47,500 bases of DNA from Dictyostelium firmibasis (Eukaryota > Evosea > Eumycetozoa > Dictyosteliales > Dictyosteliaceae): the NCBI GenBank assembly GCA_036169595.1, contig CM069767.1:375001-422500 (forward strand), given 5' to 3'. The notes beneath the pieces were generated by a model. It worked only from the letters and a program-made list of their open reading frames with translations, did no database searches and was not told the origin of the DNA. Below are positions 5,843 through 47,500 of the stretch, in pieces; the stretch's first letter is position 1; each line of letters starts with the position of its first letter. The position numbers and the translations under genes were made by a program.

Positions 5843-8800
5843 TTAACTATTAAAAATATGATTAATATGGCTAATTAACATTTTTTCATTTACCTTCCAA
5901 TCTTCATTATAAGATCCCAATGATTTTAGTAAATCTTTAGTTCTTTTCGAAAGGTTGAAACCCTTGTCGAGGTTATGTTTTTCATGGAAATCCATTGAAT
6001 GAAAAGAACGGAATTTAACACAAGATAAAACATCGGAATGCAAGATCATTTGTCTCCATTCTTCAAAAGCGATTGGTTTGCAACCATATATTTTATTCAT
6101 TGGACCATATATATCTTTTGGAGCTATGATATCACCATAGACATTGTAAATGTTTAATTTTCCATGGCTTGAACCCTCCCAACATTTCTCTGTTAATATT
6201 AAATTCATTGTATTATTTGAAACCCAATCAACTGGTGTTAACAATACTTTCATATCAACATCAGGATAATGAGAGGTTGCGTAGCAACACTGAACTGAAA
6301 GTTGGAAGAAATCACTTGAAAGTCCAACACCTGTTTCAGGATGAGAGAATATAGAAGGTGGTCTAATTAACATGGATGGAATACCTCTTCTTGCCGCCTC
6401 TATCAACAAATATTCTCCAATAACTTTACTTTGCATATAACCTGCTGGTAAATTATCAATGTTATCCAATGATGGTAAAATTGATTCATCAAATTCTTCA
6501 CCATTCAATGATTGATTTAAAAATACAGTAAAAGTTGAAAAATTTACTATTGGTTTTTGAATAGCATTGATACGGTCAGCTATTGATAATTTTATGATTT
6601 CAACTACACCATCAACGTTTACAGGTTTATTTGATTTATAATCAGATTCTAAATTTAAATCTGCACCAGAATTTATAATTAAATTTGCATTGTTTGCAAT
6701 GAGTGAATAATCATTATCAGAGAGACCCAATCTTACTTTTGCTAAATCACCGACAACTGGTACAATCTTTGAAATTTGCATTTCATTCAATTGGTCATAT
6801 ACTTTATGATGTTTAAGGTTATTGATTATTTCATCGATTGGATTTATTGAATTTGATTTATTTCTCAAGAGACAATAGGCGACTGAACATTCAGATAATT
6901 TTAATAAATGAACTAACATATGAGCTCCTAAGAATCCAGTTGCACCAGTTATAAATACTCTTTTATCATTTTCTTTTATTATTTTAAGTGGTTGAATTGA
7001 TTCATCCAATTTCATTTCATTATTCCAAAATTGTTTTTTTTCTTCTTTTGTCATATCTGATTTTGAACCCAATTTACCATCTAAAAACTCTTGATACCTA
7101 ATTTCAATTAATTTAATCGAATCACCAATTGATTTGTTTTGTAGTTGTTGAATTGTTACTAAATTTGAAACCTTAAGATGTTTATCAATCCAATTCTTCA
7201 TTTGTACAATAATTAATGAATCTGCGCCATACTTAATTAATCTACTATCTTTATCTATCAATGATTCATTTATTTTTAATAGTTGTGATGCCTTTCCAAG
7301 GAATAATTGTTCAAATGATTTATTTGTTTTATCATCATCATCATCTTTGTTGTTTTCATCAATTTCTGATTGTTCACACCATTGATAGTATGGTAATTTT
7401 TTTGTAGCTCTCTTATATTTTGTATTGTTACCTTCATCATTGAATTGACAATTGAAATCAATGTTAAAACCTTTAAAATATAATTCCACCAATGTATTTT
7501 GAAATTCTTGATAGTTATCTTTCTTTTTATTACAAGGTGAATAAACTGAAACTGAATCACCATTATTAAAGTATTCAGAAGATAATGGTATCATTTCTTT
7601 TAAGTAATTAGACAATGATGGATGTGGGGCCATTTCAAAAAATGATACATTTGAACCTAATTGGTTAGATTCTATAAATTTATAAATGTTTAAAATGGTT
7701 TCATCGAAATAAACTGGTCTTAAAATATTATTAAACAAATAATTTGAATCAAACTGTGTAGATTCATTGAACAGATTTGTTGTAACTGTTGAAAAAGTTG
7801 GTACAGTTGGTGTTTTGAATTTAAAGCAAAGATTTGAAAGAGCATCTTTAGTTTTACTTTGGCTTGATGTATGACAAGATGTATGACAAGCCAACATTGA
7901 TGATATTACACCTTCTTTTTCAAAGAGTAATTTTGAAATTTCATTTAATTGTTCTTCTAGACCTCCAATCACTATTGAATTTGGTGAATTGAAACAACTG
8001 AATTCAACATTTGGATATTTATCAATTGGTATCATTGATTGATATTGATTTTTACTAATTGGTAAAACCAACATTTTACCCATTCCATTTGTTTTGTCTT
8101 GATTTATACCTCTTTGTGATACTAATAAACAAGCTGTTTCTAAATCAAACATTCCAGAACAATAGGCACCGAAAACCTCTCCAATGCAATGACCAACAAT
8201 AATTGATGGTTTAATATTCCAATGTTTATACAATTCAAAGAGTGAAGCATTAAAAATAAATAATAAAGGTTGAGAAATAATAGATTCATTAATGGTTTTT
8301 GAATCTTTTGGATCAATAGATTTTAATTTTTCAAGTGGCGAAAATCCTAAATATTTAAAAAGTTTTTCGTTGATTAAATCAACAGATTTCTTAAATACTG
8401 GTTCATTATTATAAAAATCATCCATCATTGAAATGTATTGAGGTCCTTGTCCACAAAAAACAAATACATTGACTTGTTGTTCACTATCTCTTGATGATGA
8501 TTTTACCTTTTTATTTATTGAATTATTTTGATTACTCTTTAACTCTTTCCAATTTTTTGCTATCATTATCGATTTTGATTTTAATTTGATTGGTCTTGAA
8601 TTAATTTGATGTTGCACAAAATCTTTAAATGGTATAGTTGATTCAAATTCATTATTTTTATCATCAATAATAATTGATTGAAGTTTTTTTAAAGAACTAA
8701 ATGAATTTGCTGAGAAAGGAATTAAGTAATCCTGTTGTTTTTCATCCACTTCTGATATCAATTCATCTCTTGAAATATTTTGGTTATAAATTTTTTTATT

Positions 8801-9640
8801 ATTAATATTATAATTGCTCTTGTTGTTGGTGTTATTATTATTATCATCAAAATGCTTTGAGAAAATGAAACTTGGTGAATGGTATGGACCATAAATAATT
8901 GTATTGAAATTTTGTTCATTTTTGGTAGGATTTACAAATTTTAAAAATGATTTAATAATTGATATGATACCAATTGATTCAGAGATATTTTTGCTACTAG
9001 TTTTTAAAAGCTCTAAATCTGAGAATTCGTTAGCATTTCTTACTGAACAAAAGATGTTATCATTATCTGCAATAGCTTTATTCAAATCTTTTAAAATAAA
9101 AGCACCAACTTGTTCAATCTCTCCATTTTTATTTTTTTTTGATCCACCAATAATGGTAATGTTAGAATCACCAAAAAGAATTGATTTATAACCAAATTTC
9201 AATGAAGTAACTATTGATGCATCACCATTGTTTGTTAGAGACTCACCTTTTAAATTGAATGCTTGTGAAATTCTAACTGAATCTTGTATACCTGATTCAT
9301 ATTGATCAGAGCTAATATAAACTGATGTTTTAGTTCCTTTTAAAATTGTTGGATCAATATTTGCACTTTCAATTGATTCCCAAATACATTTTAAAAGGAG
9401 TATTTGTTTGTCATTGATTATATCTTCTTTTGATGTTTTAATATCAAATCCAAATAATGAATAATCGAACTCTTTAATCTCATTTGAAAGGGAATCGCTA
9501 CTATTTGAATATTTGATTTCTTTTAAATCGCTGTTGATAGTATTATCATCCAATAACCCATTAATACTTTTGAAATATTGATTATTTTGTAATAATCTAA
9601 ACCCAACTCCTATTATTCCAACACCATTATTTTTATCCAT
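5843..9640 (-). CDS. Shortened polyketide-synthase-like protein: degenerate KS, AT, ACP, thioester reductase
   Basis: A single-exon gene of 1265 residues. Domain order: ketosynthase-like N-terminus (1-260), acyltransferase (about 390-690), acyl carrier protein (about 775-850) and NAD(P)H thioester reductase (about 885-1265). The ACP has 'YGADSLI' with the phosphopantetheine Ser at 808. The reductase has 'GATGFLG' (899-905) and 'YMQSK' (Tyr1068, Lys1072). The KS is far too short. At the place of the usual TACSSS nucleophile it reads 'NNGDASIVTS' (no Cys), and the HGTGT region is absent. The AT nucleophile motif is 'GHCIGE' rather than GHSxGE (Cys485). DH, methyltransferase, ER and KR domains of full-length Dictyostelium PKSs are missing. 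The long open frame suggests selection to keep a protein, perhaps acting as a loader/reductase on another synthase's product; that role is inference. Confidence 0.85.
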   Translation of the reverse strand: MDKNNGVGIIGVGFRLLQNNQYFKSINGLLDDNTINSDLKEIKYSNSSDSLSNEIKEFDYSLFGFDIKTSKEDIINDKQILLLKCIWESIESANIDPTILKGTKTSVYISSDQYESGIQDSVRISQAFNLKGESLTNNGDASIVTSLKFGYKSILFGDSNITIIGGSKKNKNGEIEQVGAFILKDLNKAIADNDNIFCSVRNANEFSDLELLKTSSKNISESIGIISIIKSFLKFVNPTKNEQNFNTIIYGPYHSPSFIFSKHFDDNNNNTNNKSNYNINNKKIYNQNISRDELISEVDEKQQDYLIPFSANSFSSLKKLQSIIIDDKNNEFESTIPFKDFVQHQINSRPIKLKSKSIMIAKNWKELKSNQNNSINKKVKSSSRDSEQQVNVFVFCGQGPQYISMMDDFYNNEPVFKKSVDLINEKLFKYLGFSPLEKLKSIDPKDSKTINESIISQPLLFIFNASLFELYKHWNIKPSIIVGHCIGEVFGAYCSGMFDLETACLLVSQRGINQDKTNGMGKMLVLPISKNQYQSMIPIDKYPNVEFSCFNSPNSIVIGGLEEQLNEISKLLFEKEGVISSMLACHTSCHTSSQSKTKDALSNLCFKFKTPTVPTFSTVTTNLFNESTQFDSNYLFNNILRPVYFDETILNIYKFIESNQLGSNVSFFEMAPHPSLSNYLKEMIPLSSEYFNNGDSVSVYSPCNKKKDNYQEFQNTLVELYFKGFNIDFNCQFNDEGNNTKYKRATKKLPYYQWCEQSEIDENNKDDDDDKTNKSFEQLFLGKASQLLKINESLIDKDSRLIKYGADSLIIVQMKNWIDKHLKVSNLVTIQQLQNKSIGDSIKLIEIRYQEFLDGKLGSKSDMTKEEKKQFWNNEMKLDESIQPLKIIKENDKRVFITGATGFLGAHMLVHLLKLSECSVAYCLLRNKSNSINPIDEIINNLKHHKVYDQLNEMQISKIVPVVGDLAKVRLGLSDNDYSLIANNANLIINSGADLNLESDYKSNKPVNVDGVVEIIKLSIADRINAIQKPIVNFSTFTVFLNQSLNGEEFDESILPSLDNIDNLPAGYMQSKVIGEYLLIEAARRGIPSMLIRPPSIFSHPETGVGLSSDFFQLSVQCCYATSHYPDVDMKVLLTPVDWVSNNTMNLILTEKCWEGSSHGKLNIYNVYGDIIAPKDIYGPMNKIYGCKPIAFEEWRQMILHSDVLSCVKFRSFHSMDFHEKHNLDKGFNLSKRTKDLLKSLGSYNEDWKVNEKMLISHINHIFNS

Positions 9641-33151: not shown

Positions 33152-33915
33152 TTTTTTTTTTACCTATAAGACGCAAGGTCTATCGGCGGTGTTAATTAAA
33201 TAAATTATCTCTACTTTTTAAATTTTTATATATTTGTATTGGTTATAATTGAGTATTATTTTTATTTTTTTATTTTTTTATTTTTTTTTATTTAAGCTTT
33301 AATGTTGTTTCTATTGTGGAATTGGATTTATTGGACTTTGCCAAGAATTGTTGATTTTTAGAAGATTTATGTTGTTGTTGAGATTTTCATTTTGTTCAAT
33401 TTTTTCACTGCCTTAAATTTTTGAGATGTGTTATTTTACCTATTATATTTGTGTAAATTTTATATTTTTTGTTTGAATTGCTTATGTTCATTGTCCAACG
33501 TCTAATTTTTAAGAATGATAGTTTGATTGTTTCGACTATTGGAGTTTTTATGTTCTTGTTTTGGTTGCAATCGATGAAAAAGTGTATGTATGGATCGCTG
33601 AATTATTGCATATTTTGGGCAAATTAAAACAAATTTTTCAAAAAAAAAAACAATCTAATTAAACACCAACCTACAAATCAAATCAAGTTTATTGTAATCA
33701 AATCAAATCATTATTTTTCATTAAAAAAAAAAATTAAATAAAGCTTAAAGAACCTTATATTTATTAATTTTATTTGTATGAGAAGGAAACTACGAATGTT
33801 AGGTTGAATATGCAGTTTTCTAGTGTGTTGTTGGAATTATTTTTGTTATGTCTAATAATCTTTTCATTTTCCAAATTTAAATGCTACCTGTTTCATACTT
33901 AATTCTTCATCAATA
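33152..33915 (-). mobile_element. 3'-end remnant of a probable non-LTR retrotransposon (TRE-like)
   Basis: On the minus strand, broken coding pieces in shifting frames run from about 33915 to 33318. They include 'INIDEELSMKQVAFKFGK', 'NSNNTLENCIFNLTFVVSFS', 'FVLICPKYAIIQRSIHTLFH', 'IKTPIVETIKLSFLKIRRW' and a last stretch ending 'INNSWQSPINPIPQ' at a stop. The 3' flank then ends ...TTAATTAACACCGCCGATAG, ACCTTGCGTCTTATAGGT and a ten-base A-run at 33152-33161. The pattern of a reverse-transcriptase C-terminal region, a short 3' UTR and an A-tail fits a 5'-truncated LINE-type copy such as the Dictyostelium TREs. Family assignment is from pattern memory. The same 3' end occurs at 35961-35998 and 39055-39106. 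Confidence 0.5.
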
Positions 33916-35830: not shown

Positions 35831-35866
35831 ATACAAAATATAAACACTTATTATTATTATTTTTAT

Positions 35867-35960
35867 TATTCACTGAAAAAAACGACTTTTTTCAAAAAAG
35901 CCAAAATTGATAATTTTTATTTTTTTATGGTAATAAAAATGAAAAAAAGTGAAAAAAAAA
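35867..35960 (+). repeat. ~90-bp dispersed repeat, copy 1
   Basis: TCACTGAAAAAAACGACTTT ... GCCAAAATTGATAATTTTTA ... GTAATAAAAATGAAAAAAAG. A close copy lies at 43661-43743. Both are followed by A-rich DNA. It may be part of a short non-autonomous element. Confidence 0.7.
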
Positions 35961-39054: not shown

Positions 39055-39106
39055 TTTAATTAACACCGCCTATGACCTTGTGTCTTATCATGTGTAAAAA
39101 AAAAAT
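39055..39106 (+). mobile_element. Retrotransposon 3'-end tail, copy 3
   Basis: TTAATTAACACCGCC, TATGACCTTGTGTCTTATCA, TGTGT then a ten-base A-run. It matches the reverse complement of 33161-33200 closely. No coding part is recognisable just upstream. Confidence 0.5.
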
Positions 39107-42237: not shown

Positions 42238-42540
42238 TAATAAAGTCTGTGATAAAATTACAAATTTTTTTTTTTTTAAAATTAATATTATAAATAATAA
42301 TTAAATTTTTTTTATAATATTTAAATTAAATAATTACCTTTAATAATAATAATTTATAACACTTGTTAACTTGAATAAATAAAATTTTGGGAAAAAAAAA
42401 AAAAAATTTTAATTTATATTGAAAAAAAAAATAAATTATTTTTTTTAATTTTTTTATTTTTTTCAAAATTCCACATTAGGTGATTCATTGATTTATTCTA
42501 TATTTTCTAAATTTGGTAATGACCTAGCCACTTTATTACT
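42238..42540 (+). repeat. Dispersed ~300-bp repeat, copy C
   Basis: Same order of blocks as copy A: AATAAAGTCTGTGATAAAAT, ATTACCTTTAATAATAATAA, GGTAATGACCTAGCCACTTT. It ends directly against the 730-bp microsatellite. Confidence 0.85.
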
Positions 42541-42541
42541 A

Positions 42542-43273
<732 letters not shown>

Positions 43274-43440
43274 CAAGAAATGATTATTGAAAATTGTAGA
43301 AATTCACTTTTTTGCAAAAAAGTTTTTTTTTTTTTTTTTTTTTTTTTCTTGGGTTTCTTGGGTTTCGAGAGTTTTGGGAGTTTTGAAAAAAACTGAAGGA
43401 AACTGGTGTCAAAAAAAAAAAAAAATATGTACAATTTATA

Positions 43441-43477
43441 GAGTTTCGCGAGTTTATTTTCAAAACTTGTGAAACTC
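43441..43477. repeat. 37-bp imperfect palindrome next to the TIR
   Basis: GAGTTTCGCGAGTTT (43441-43455) faces AAACTTGTGAAACTC (43463-43477), matching at 12 of 15 positions. It ends three bases before the left inverted repeat of the 43481-46260 unit. Confidence 0.75.
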
Positions 43478-43660
43478 AACTACACCTCCAGAAAAAAATG
43501 CGGAATAACTCGGATTATTATTAAAATCTAGGGGACAATTCTTATTATAATTATATTCTTTTTTTTTTAGATAATAATAATATTCTCAATTAATTCTCAA
43601 TTTATTCGAAAAAAAGAATAATATAATAATATAATGAGAAAAATATAATAATATTAATGA

Positions 43661-43743
43661 GTCACTGGAAGAAACGACTTTCACAAATTGCCAAAATTGA
43701 TAATTTTTATTTTTTTGTGATAATAAAAATGAAAAAAAGTCAA
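43661..43743 (+). repeat. ~90-bp dispersed repeat, copy 2
   Basis: TCACTGGAAGAAACGACTTT ... GCCAAAATTGATAATTTTTA ... GATAATAAAAATGAAAAAAA, as at 35867-35960. Confidence 0.7.
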
Positions 43744-43779
43744 AAAATATTTTTTTTTAACAAAATTTTGGTGGTATTG

Positions 43780-43863
43780 TTATTTTATTTTATTTTATTT
43801 TATTTTATTTTATTTTATTTTATTTTATTTTATTTTATTTTATTTTATTTTATTTTATTTTAT
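43780..43863. repeat. (TTTTA)n pentanucleotide repeat
   Basis: About 16 perfect units. Confidence 0.95.
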
Positions 43864-44061
43864 CACTATTATATAATTAATATCATCATATATTATTATT
43901 TTTTTATTTTTATTTTTTTTATTTTTTATTTTCACTTTTTTTTATTTTTAAAAATACGTTTCATTTTCAAAATTTTTTTTTTTTTTTTTTTCAAAACAAT
44001 TAATATGTTTATACAATTTAAATAAATATATAAATTCATTAATAATAATATATAACACACA

Positions 44062-46112
44062 ATGCCTAAAAATTTTAATGATTTGTTAAAATCTTTATCC
44101 TATGAAAAAAACGATGACTCACTAACAGTATACTCGAATCCTGATAACAAAAGAGCTATCAACAGTTTTTTACAAAAAAATTCAATTTTTGGCATAGATA
44201 GATTTTCTGTGTTCCATACATATTTTAATGAAAATAAAAGGAAAAGTGACACACCTCTTACAAATAAAAATGACAGGAAAAAACTTAAAAATAGAGATAT
44301 TTTTCAAGATTTTAAAGAACCAGAAGAAGAAGATATAAACAAAATTACTCCTATCAAATCATTAGGTAATAAAAATGATTTAGAGATTGAAAATGAAGAG
44401 AGTGAAAATGAAGAGAGTTCATATGATGGTAAAACTAATGCAGATGGCGAATATAATGAATATGATGGTGAAAGGAATGAATATGATGGTGAAAGAATGA
44501 GTATGATGGTGAAAAGAATGAATATGATGGTGAAAAGAATGAATATGATGGTGAAATGAATGAATATGATGGCGAAATGAATGAATATGATGGTTATGGT
44601 GAAATGAATGAAGGTGATGGTAATAGTGAAATGAATGATGATAATGGTGAAGATGATGGTGAAGATGATGGTGAAGGCAAAAGTGAAACAAATGAAAAAC
44701 AAGTAATTTATGAAATTTATGATAATTACCCCCCTGAAATAGAATCAATTGAAATTTCTTCATTTTCAAAAGAAGAAATTGATCAATTATTTGTTTTATC
44801 AAATAATGATTATGGATTTGTTCTTTCAAAATGTTTGAATTATATTCAAAAAAAATCAAAAGAAATTTTTGAAAAAGTAATTTCAGTAATAAACACACCA
44901 GATTCTTATGTTTATCAAATGCTACAACAAAACACTTCCACAGAAAACCACCTAATGATGTGGATTAAAATTCAACAACTGCAGCACAATTTATTTAATC
45001 ATCAACAACAATTAAATATAGCATCACCCCAACAATATATTGATATTGCCAATTTATTAAAAAATCCAGACTTTTTAAAACTCATCTCGGGTGAAACAAG
45101 AATTAATGAAAAAGAGATAAAACCAATAGATTACAAAAAAAGAAAAGAAAAAAATGAAATTAAGAATTATATCAAATCTTGGTATAGATATAAAGAATCA
45201 AATTTTTTAACAATTTCAGATGAAAAAATTCCACAATTATTGCTAGAATTTTTAAAAAAACAAATATCTCAAGATCCAAAAATTTTAACAACATTTAAAG
45301 ATCAATCACTAATATCACTAATCAATGAATCGAAAAAAAATTTGAAAGATCTTTGGAAACCAAAAGACAAATTATTTAAAGAATTATGTATCAAGTTTCC
45401 AAAATATATTATTAATGAAAAATTAAAATTAGAAAAAGATGTAGTCAAAGATATGGTTTATTCCAAATTTTCTTTTCAAATTGATGAAGAACAAGCTACC
45501 AAAATAACAAAATGGATCTTAGCTAGCAAAGAATCATTTCACTCATACACACAACCAGATTACATAAAAAATTATACACAACCAACTTCTTCCAATATTA
45601 TTTCACCAAAAGTATCTTTAAAAATAGAAGAAAAATCAAAATCTGATCTAACATCAACACCAAAATCATTACCACCAAAATCTAATGCAACATCAACACC
45701 AAAATCATTACCACCAAAATCTAATGTAACATTAACACCAAAATCATTACCACCAAAATCTAATGCAACATCAACACCAAAATCATTACCACCAAAATCA
45801 GATGCAACATCAACACTAAAATCATTACCACAAAAATCTAATGCAACATCAACACCAAAATCAGATGCAACATCAACACCAAAAACATCAAAATATGTAG
45901 TAATATCAACAACAAAATCATTACCATTAAAATCTGATATGGCATCAACACCAAAAACTTTACCATTTAAATCTAATGCAACATCAACACCAAAAACATC
46001 AACATCAAAATCTGATGCAGCATCAACACCAAAAATAGTTACCCGACTTCGTATAGATCCTCAACTCCTCGAAGATTACCAACAAGATAAAAAAAAAAAT
46101 AATAAAAAATAA
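44062..46112 (+). pseudogene. Large ORF of unknown family, one-base frameshift in a repeat
   Basis: ATG at 44062 and stop at 46110-46112. The first frame is open to 44559, the second from before 44556 to the end. They meet in tandem 21-bp units coding YDGE[K/R/M]NE. One unit near 44490 has GAAAG where its sisters have GAAAAG or GAAAGG, so one missing base explains the shift. With it restored the protein would have 683 residues. The N-terminus is 'MPKNFNDLLKSLSYEKNDDS'. The middle, after acidic repeats, is helical, with 'KNYIKSWYRYKESNFLTISD' and 'LWKPKDKLFKELCIKFPKYI'. The C-terminus is about ten 13-residue units like 'SNATSTPKSLPPK', then 'TRLRIDPQLLEDYQQDKKKN'. Both repeats suggest rapid expansion. 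It may be a young pseudogene or a sequencing error in a live gene. Confidence 0.6.
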
Positions 46113-46260
46113 TTTAAATATTTTTGAACACATAATGTTGGGTAAAAAACCCTTTTAAAATTAATAACGTTTCTTTTTTTTTTTTTTTTAAAATCAATCG
46201 ATAATTCTTCTATTTTATTCCAATACGATAAAATTCTTTTTTCAAATTTCTGGAGGTGTA

Positions 46261-46545
46261 ATTAAAAAAAAATAAAAAAAAAAATTAAAAAAAAAACCAA
46301 TTTTATATTTCATAATAATAAAAAAGTTAAATTTAGTCTAAAGTATAAACATATGTTTTATATTGTTTTTTGAGATTCTTGCAAAAAAAAAAAAATTAAA
46401 AAAACATAATAACAAAAAAAAAAAAATTAACACAAAAAAAACAAACATTTTCAACTTTATTCATAATTTTTTTTGCAGATTTTTTCATCAACAAAAAAAA
46501 TAAAAAAAAAAATTATTATTTAAAAATAATTAATAAAAAAAAGGA
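46261..46545. other. AT-rich spacer right of the candidate element
   Basis: A-runs and T-runs with no feature beyond the following duplication. Confidence 0.5.
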
Positions 46546-46562
46546 TTTACTGATTTTATTAT

Positions 46563-46596
<34 letters not shown>

Positions 46597-47500
46597 TGTA
46601 TATTTTTTATTTTATTTTATTTTTTTATTTTTTTTTATTTTGAATTTATTATTTTTAATTATTTGAGTTTATTTGATGTTTAAATCACTAATTAATATTT
46701 AAAAAAATTATTTTATAAGAACTTAAAAAAAAAAATCACTCTTTTTCTTTAAACAAATCCTAAAAAAAAAAAAAATAAATAAATAATGACCTCTTGTAAA
46801 TATAATTTATTTATAAATTTACGTCTAAATTCACTGGCAATCGATTGATACCTCATTAAATTAGTAATAGGCTAATTAAAAAAACTAAATTTAAAATTAC
46901 TTTTTTTGTATCCAAAATGACAATTTTCAATTTTTAAAAACATTTTTAGTCATTATTTTTATGAAAAATAAAATAAAGTATTTTGAAGGTCATTTTATAA
47001 AAAAAAAAAATTATTTTTTTATTTTTTAAATTTAGTGTTAATTAGTTTATATTTTTTTAAATTTTTTTTTTTTTTTAAATTTTTATTTTTTTTACTCTTG
47101 CCATACATATACATATTTTATCTTTATCATTATCAAACAAAACTTTGTCAAATTTTAAAAATGCAATTCATTCAAACTTTTAGAAAACAAATACCATCGA
47201 CTGTTATTTCAAATTTATTAGAATTTTACCTCAAACAAATTTTAAATTTCAAGCGTAAAAATAGTATATGGTTTTGCACTGAAGGTGTAATTTCTATATT
47301 AAAAGAATTTTATTTAAAATCAAATACAATTTCAACTTCAACTTCAACTTCAGATTCAATTTTAATACCATCATTATCAGAGGCATCACCAACAGAATAT
47401 ATATAATAATGATGAAAACAATGATTATTATTATGAATTAACAAATAGTAATATTGTTCAATACGAACAATTAGAACAACAACAACAACAACAACAACAA
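46546..47500 (+). repeat. Segmental duplication, right copy (continues past window)
   Basis: Same order of blocks as 39545-40643, in the same orientation, offset by about 6.86 kb at the ORF start codons. It has a slightly shorter block in front of CCTCTTGTAAATATAATTTA. Confidence 0.9.
47161..47500 (+). pseudogene. MQF-family gene, copy 3: frameshift in a TA repeat, 3' end outside window
   Basis: ATG at 47161 gives 'MQFIQTFRKQIPSTVISNLL' and the family block 'FKRKNSIWFCTEGVISILKE'. At 47395-47408 the sequence has two fewer bases (one TA) than copy 2, so the frame stops at 47404-47406. The next frame would continue as 'NNDYYYELTNSNIVQYEQLE' into a Gln run reaching the window end. In copy 2 that place is open. 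It is either a fresh pseudogene or a sequence error at a dinucleotide repeat. Confidence 0.6.

Follow-up and report, generated by a model that had tools for sequence, protein, structure and literature searches.

The window analyzed here, a stretch of 47,500 nucleotides of Dictyostelium firmibasis DNA (C3:375001-422500 in an assembly of 31,455,843 bases and 12 contigs), harbors towards its right-hand end a unit of 2.78 kb bounded by a 14-bp inverted repeat. Both 14-mers are exact: TACACCTCCAGAAA spans 43481-43494, and 46247-46260 is its perfect reverse complement, as a sequence-only reading of this DNA had described, and the TA reported at both outer ends is indeed present. Because of these two TAs, the element proper is taken as 43483-46258, with terminal inverted repeats (TIRs) of 12 bp (Table 1). 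The unit holds an orphan gene in two overlapping pieces and a short dispersed repeat; directly left of its target-side flank lies an (AAT)n microsatellite of ~700 bp (42560-43276). Elsewhere in the window, the minus strand of 5843-9640 carries a polyketide-synthase-like ORF with acyl transferase, carrier and reductase domains and a partial ketoacyl synthase domain. An imperfect inverted repeat of ~35 bp (ATAAGAC.CAAGGTC...GGCGGTGTTAATTAAA), with its halves 5.9 kb apart at 33164-33200 and 39057-39100, could represent the ends of another element.

Table 1. Coordinates in the window of the element, its flanks and the segments with copies elsewhere in the genome.
Feature	Position	Strand	Remarks
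Left target-side flank	43286..43482	+	repeat with element-free C6 copies; includes palindrome 43441-43477
Left target-site copy, TA	43481..43482	.	one single TA in 4/4 empty paralogues
Left 12-bp TIR CACCTCCAGAAA	43483..43494	+	exact
Left end segment common to second copy	43485..43662	+	C6:769302-769478, 97%
Subterminal motif TTTTTTTCGAATAAA	43601..43615	-	weak evidence; 9 genome sites, reversed control 4
Short dispersed repeat inside element	43663..43748	+	C6 copy diverges from window copy at start of repeat
ORF piece 1, 165 aa, N-terminal part	44062..44559	+	ends after frame break in tandem repeat
ORF piece 2, 518 aa	44556..46112	+	acidic tract, middle part, TPKS-rich C-terminal repeats
ORF 3' part kept in C6 copy	45637..46143	+	C6:770022-770528, 98%, 8 differences in 507 bp
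Short piece	46153-46180	forward in C6 copy	C6:770762-770789, 96%
Right-end segment	46174..46240	+; inverted in C6 copy	C6:770929-770995, 98.5%
Right 12-bp TIR	46247..46258	-	with inner neighbour, like three single ends elsewhere
Right target-site copy, TA	46259..46260	.	
Right target-side flank	46261..46310	+	matches C6:519584 paralogue after 15 missing bases

The gene had been read as one long ORF matching no known family. The absence of a significant family match stands, but the ORF proves to be two, which overlap at 44556-44559 and are separated by an apparent frame break, at a point where a ~21-bp tandem repeat has one unit a base shorter than the rest. In the product, an N-terminal part is followed by an acidic repeat tract, then by a middle part of ~300 residues, and a TPKS-rich tail closes the sequence. 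The G+C content is 27 and 26.5% in the ORFs vs. 13 (5') and 20.5% (3') in the non-coding parts of the unit, a contrast that would be expected for a real gene. Also in the unit are three shorter ORFs (122, 132, and 159 aa), of which two cross the tandem-repeat tract on the opposite strand. The ~83-bp dispersed repeat (CACTGGAAGAAACGACTTT...GAAAAAAAGTCA) is found at 43663-43748 and 35852-35957 in the window and at C6:526580, C6:707154 (without its first part) and C4:4052066. The copy at 43663 has no stable RNA fold (z -0.22), and Rfam finds nothing in 42400-47500 at E up to 1.

The profile search proposed for the ORF yields no significant match, and no transposase is recognizable in the unit by Pfam or NCBIfam on the ORF pieces. 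In Pfam, no family reaches E 0.1 or better with either piece, and none appears at E up to 10 with piece 1 or its first 103 residues. The 298-residue middle part gives five weak families at E up to 10, all below the cut-off; the best, DUF4158 (E 0.032), a domain of Tn3 transposases, was treated as a chance match. Searched against NCBIfam, piece 1 and the middle part match no family at E up to 1. The best PDB matches by sequence (E 0.3 for piece 2, 0.36 for piece 1) are not significant. The viral_contigs and genome_contigs collections contain no relative of the ORF, which is little informative since, by their descriptions, they comprise viruses and prokaryotes. Within its own genome, no intact paralogue of the ORF was found, and none at E 0.001 or better except a remnant on C6; a match of 54 residues of the middle part (E 0.069) in a frame of 5,162 residues was taken as chance. 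Two AlphaFold models computed without alignment (mean pLDDT 44 and 49) contain helices only, so the middle part is predicted, with low confidence, to be all-helical. Foldseek with one of them finds no PDB match at E 0.001 or better, a result that is not meaningful at that model confidence.

The inverted repeat was assessed for chance occurrence. Under an order-3 Markov model, perfect 14-bp inverted repeats (at least 6 G/C, spacing 0.2-10 kb) are expected 0.05 times in the window, and 2 of 60 simulations had any. However, the real window has five such pairs at four places, that of the element included; the repeat alone is thus no proof, was rejected as a sufficient one, and other evidence is needed. 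Three further matches to the 14-mer occur within the window, each with 3 mismatches. Across the assembly, the 14-mer has 24 matches at ≤1 mismatch, 4 of them exact, vs. 11 in a reversed control. Among these 24, the window pair is the sole convergent pair ≤10 kb apart.

The left flank provides this other evidence. With its last 88 bp as query, five places are found, the window itself and four on C6, which are 100, 98, 98, and 91% identical to it (91% across 69 bp). Every left-flank alignment ends with the A of the left TA (43482), and all four paralogues run on past the same TA, single in each, without the element. Where the window has the element, the paralogues read ATTGGTGACAAA or ATTGATGACAAA; their junction is CTCAACTAATTGGTGACAAA or CTCAACTAATTGATGACAAA, and that of the window is CTCAACTA, followed by the element. 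The palindrome previously noted as touching the left end of the unit is real, but it occurs at all four element-free sites, was therefore rejected as part of the element and belongs to the target repeat. Three of the four empty paralogues (L037, L038, L046) have alike sequence beside the repeat, with a possible gene start in L046, and hence the target repeat may be the promoter region of a small gene family.

At the other end, the window reads TAATT 3' of the right TIR. Both flanks were joined, with the unit and one TA left out, and aligned to the closest paralogue, C6:519584. The joined flanks share 102 identical bases on the left and ATT (of TAATT) across the junction, and 15 bases are missing, placed by the aligner as gaps of 8, 5, and 2. 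After this loss, AAAAAAATAAAAAAAAAAATT(A)nCCAATTTT matches the paralogue with one 3-base gap and 2 mismatches near the end. The match lies in low-complexity A/T sequence, and its score of 78 is reached by none of 13,448 control stretches (best 77), which begin with TAAT and were drawn from fetched loci that partly overlap. In a first test, which drew on 254 stretches that begin with TAATT and lie within the window's first 42 kb, none reached the score of the flank (best 73). The remaining three paralogues score 36-38 on the right flank, as do ~12% of controls. As judged from these alignments, the left junction of the putative insertion is firm, the right junction is probable, with a small deletion, and TA is supported as the target on the left side. 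The target duplication can be read from one insertion only, with TA at both ends, a single TA in the empty paralogues and 15 bp lost on the right.

A second copy, heavily deleted, is located at C6:769302-770995; it is 97-98% alike, and its left flank has no match to that of the window copy. All four of its blocks (three long, one of 28 bp) fall inside the TIR-bounded unit. Its left homology sets in with the third TIR base, the left end reads ATCCTCCAGAAA, and between the blocks most of the gene is gone and other sequence stands in its place. No right TIR is present in the expected orientation within 9 kb at ≤3 mismatches in 12. Because this copy has lost terminal bases and shows no right TIR, its own target site is unreadable. 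Seven of the 8 differences in the 507-bp block lie in the ORF and change five codons; four of these codons differ in the residue encoded, one gives a stop, and none is changed silently. A protein search adds two weaker rows at this copy, which align repeat with repeat. The stretch 46300-46404, to the right of the unit, is found again at C6:766208-766293 and C6:774690-774791 and, as judged by eye, close to C6:771213, among genes with FNIP-like repeats. These two to three recurrences near the C6 copy leave some room for shared surroundings.

The sequence-only reading would have been refuted by a genome without other copies of the end sequence, but this sequence occurs elsewhere too; the decayed copy on C6 is joined by three single ends, C5:3098958, C1:6937464 and C5:2423560, in which 15, 14, and 14 of the next 21 bases are as in the right end. 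The other 19 non-window matches share 2-11 of these bases. A 31-base form of the end has three matches in the genome and none in the reversed control, the pattern being drawn from the same three ends; the window right end is not among its matches. None of the three has a convergent partner at ≤3 mismatches in 16 within the stretches examined, and a convergent word 5.3 kb from C5:3098958 (4 mismatches in 16) was taken as chance. No orphan gene copy lies beside them, the C6 remnant being the only other gene copy found. Used as a DNA query, the C1:6937464 end returns seven rows: one is the query itself, three belong to the two other ends, and three to two new C1 places, C1:8937280 and near C1:8090821. 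At C1:8937280, no end-like word with <5 mismatches in 16 occurs within the 3 kb examined. The assembly yielded no further pair of intact ends. As for the subterminal motif TTTTTTTCGAATAAA, four of its nine genome sites are inside this end family, two of these four being copies of one another. Most of the other five are in low-complexity DNA, and the motif was rejected as strong evidence; an end-like word with 3 mismatches is close to one of these five, C3:1551089.

These observations also bear on the idea that an ordinary host gene and a chance inverted repeat were duplicated together as segments. Other 14-bp inverted repeats do occur in the window and duplicated intergenic pieces abound in the region, but the empty sites break exactly at the inverted repeat, the second copy starts ≤2 bases from it with a different left flank, and further ends share the extended end sequence. 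The empty paralogues have already largely refuted this idea, which we regard as quite improbable. The unit is very probably an inserted, low-copy TIR DNA transposon. It is read as a real insertion because the left-flank repeat recurs at four C6 places, all element-free past the same TA. In addition, C6:519584 matches both flanks, the second copy has its left homology from the third base of the TIR and all its blocks inside the unit, and three genomic ends extend the end sequence. Against this stand the unclean right junction, the lack of another intact end pair or a recognizable transposase in the unit, and the recurrence of 46300-46404 near the C6 copy. The earlier proposal that the unit moved as a piece finds good support: the left flank has four element-free paralogues, the closest of which also matches the right flank, and the second copy elsewhere has another left flank.

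The best reading is a rare, now broken TA-inserting TIR transposon, ordinary in kind. As expected for class II TIR elements, the left end is exact with respect to all four empty sites, the right TIR is exact with its flank matched after 15 missing bases, and copies are dispersed with unrelated flanks, here a single decayed copy whose left flank differs. Tc1/mariner (IS630) elements have short TIRs with TA at either end, as does the unit, but no transposase domain was found in its ORF. The link to Tc1/mariner made in the sequence-only reading thus finds no protein evidence in its support. DDE_3 and DDE_1 were the transposase families sought in the genome. The best DDE_3 match has 19.9 bits vs. 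a cut-off of 28.6 and three stops inside, and DDE_1 has none. In 14 named control genomes, DDE_3 has matches in three (two over the cut-off) and DDE_1 in one (none over the cut-off). Owing to these weak controls and to introns, the genome negatives for both families are limited, their sensitivity being little tested. A piggyBac-like element, which would have TTAA flanking both ends, does not fit, as the flanks read ACTA and TAAT.

Tdd-4 and Tdd-5 (Ginger2/Tdd) are likewise Dictyostelium DNA transposons, but their target duplications measure 5 bp, their TIRs are 260 and 297 bp long, and a Gypsy-like integrase is reported for them (PMC2836005, available text). In contrast, the present element has TA, 12-bp TIRs and no integrase match. 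Other Ginger2 elements have a 4-bp target duplication (same text). According to the available part of a review, no D. discoideum DNA transposon transposase is significantly similar to known ones (PMC5633606). Given the reported integrase of Tdd-4 and Tdd-5 (PMC2836005), this "none" is too broad. The D. discoideum elements DDT and Thug are also dictyostelid DNA transposons with transposases reported unlike known ones (PMC5633606, available part) and, by their descriptions, are possible relatives. The DDT-B consensus, 5,471 bp in the text available (PMC9012585), is ~2x the length of the element. As far as testable, the family is new, with DDT and Thug as possible relatives.

How the element moved can be outlined. 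A transposase would have recognized the CACCTCCAGAAA ends, excised the element from its donor site and inserted it at a TA, so that this TA would have been doubled; we infer the cutting and pasting, and the left junction shows the joining at TA. The element would now be broken, its longest gene having a frame break and the sole related copy found being gutted. Whether the orphan gene is the element's own unrecognized transposase or a passenger, with the transposase supplied elsewhere, is nearly balanced, with some leaning to the passenger. A non-autonomous element, the ends moved by a transposase encoded elsewhere and the gene captured as cargo, has about an even chance of being correct. An RNase H-like DDE domain is expected to contain strands, and the two low-confidence models make the middle part all-helical without them; the ORF also has no family match, and the three related single ends lack this gene alongside. 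On the other hand, the genome has yielded no donor gene or cargo paralogue, no candidate transposase with these ends and no DDE_3 or DDE_1 over the cut-off.

An autonomous version of the transposon, the ORF being an unrecognized transposase as reported for Dictyostelium DNA transposons, is possible though somewhat doubtful. The ORF is the longest, fills most of the unit and reaches almost to its right end, and D. discoideum transposases unlike known ones provide a precedent (PMC5633606, available part). However, no catalytic signature was found in the ORF, the models are all-helical at very low confidence and low-complexity repeats are many. Moreover, all five codons that differ between the copies are non-silent, so nothing shows constraint on the ORF. 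That it encodes the transposase of an undescribed TA-joining superfamily, a largely helical enzyme unlike the DDE families, is unlikely.

In the genome paper of D. firmibasis TNS-C-14, transposable elements were annotated by tblastx against D. discoideum Repbase entries, and the words DDT, Tdd and Thug are absent from its main text as available (PMC11193728). Among the open-licence PMC papers searched, none joining "firmibasis" with "DNA transposon" was found. The element family may escape this tblastx approach. For the most part, the enzymes that move Dictyostelium DNA transposons reportedly do not resemble known transposases. A delimited unit whose ends are exact, together with paralogues that lack it and one candidate gene, offers a starting point for finding intact relatives in other dictyostelids and for testing what moves them.
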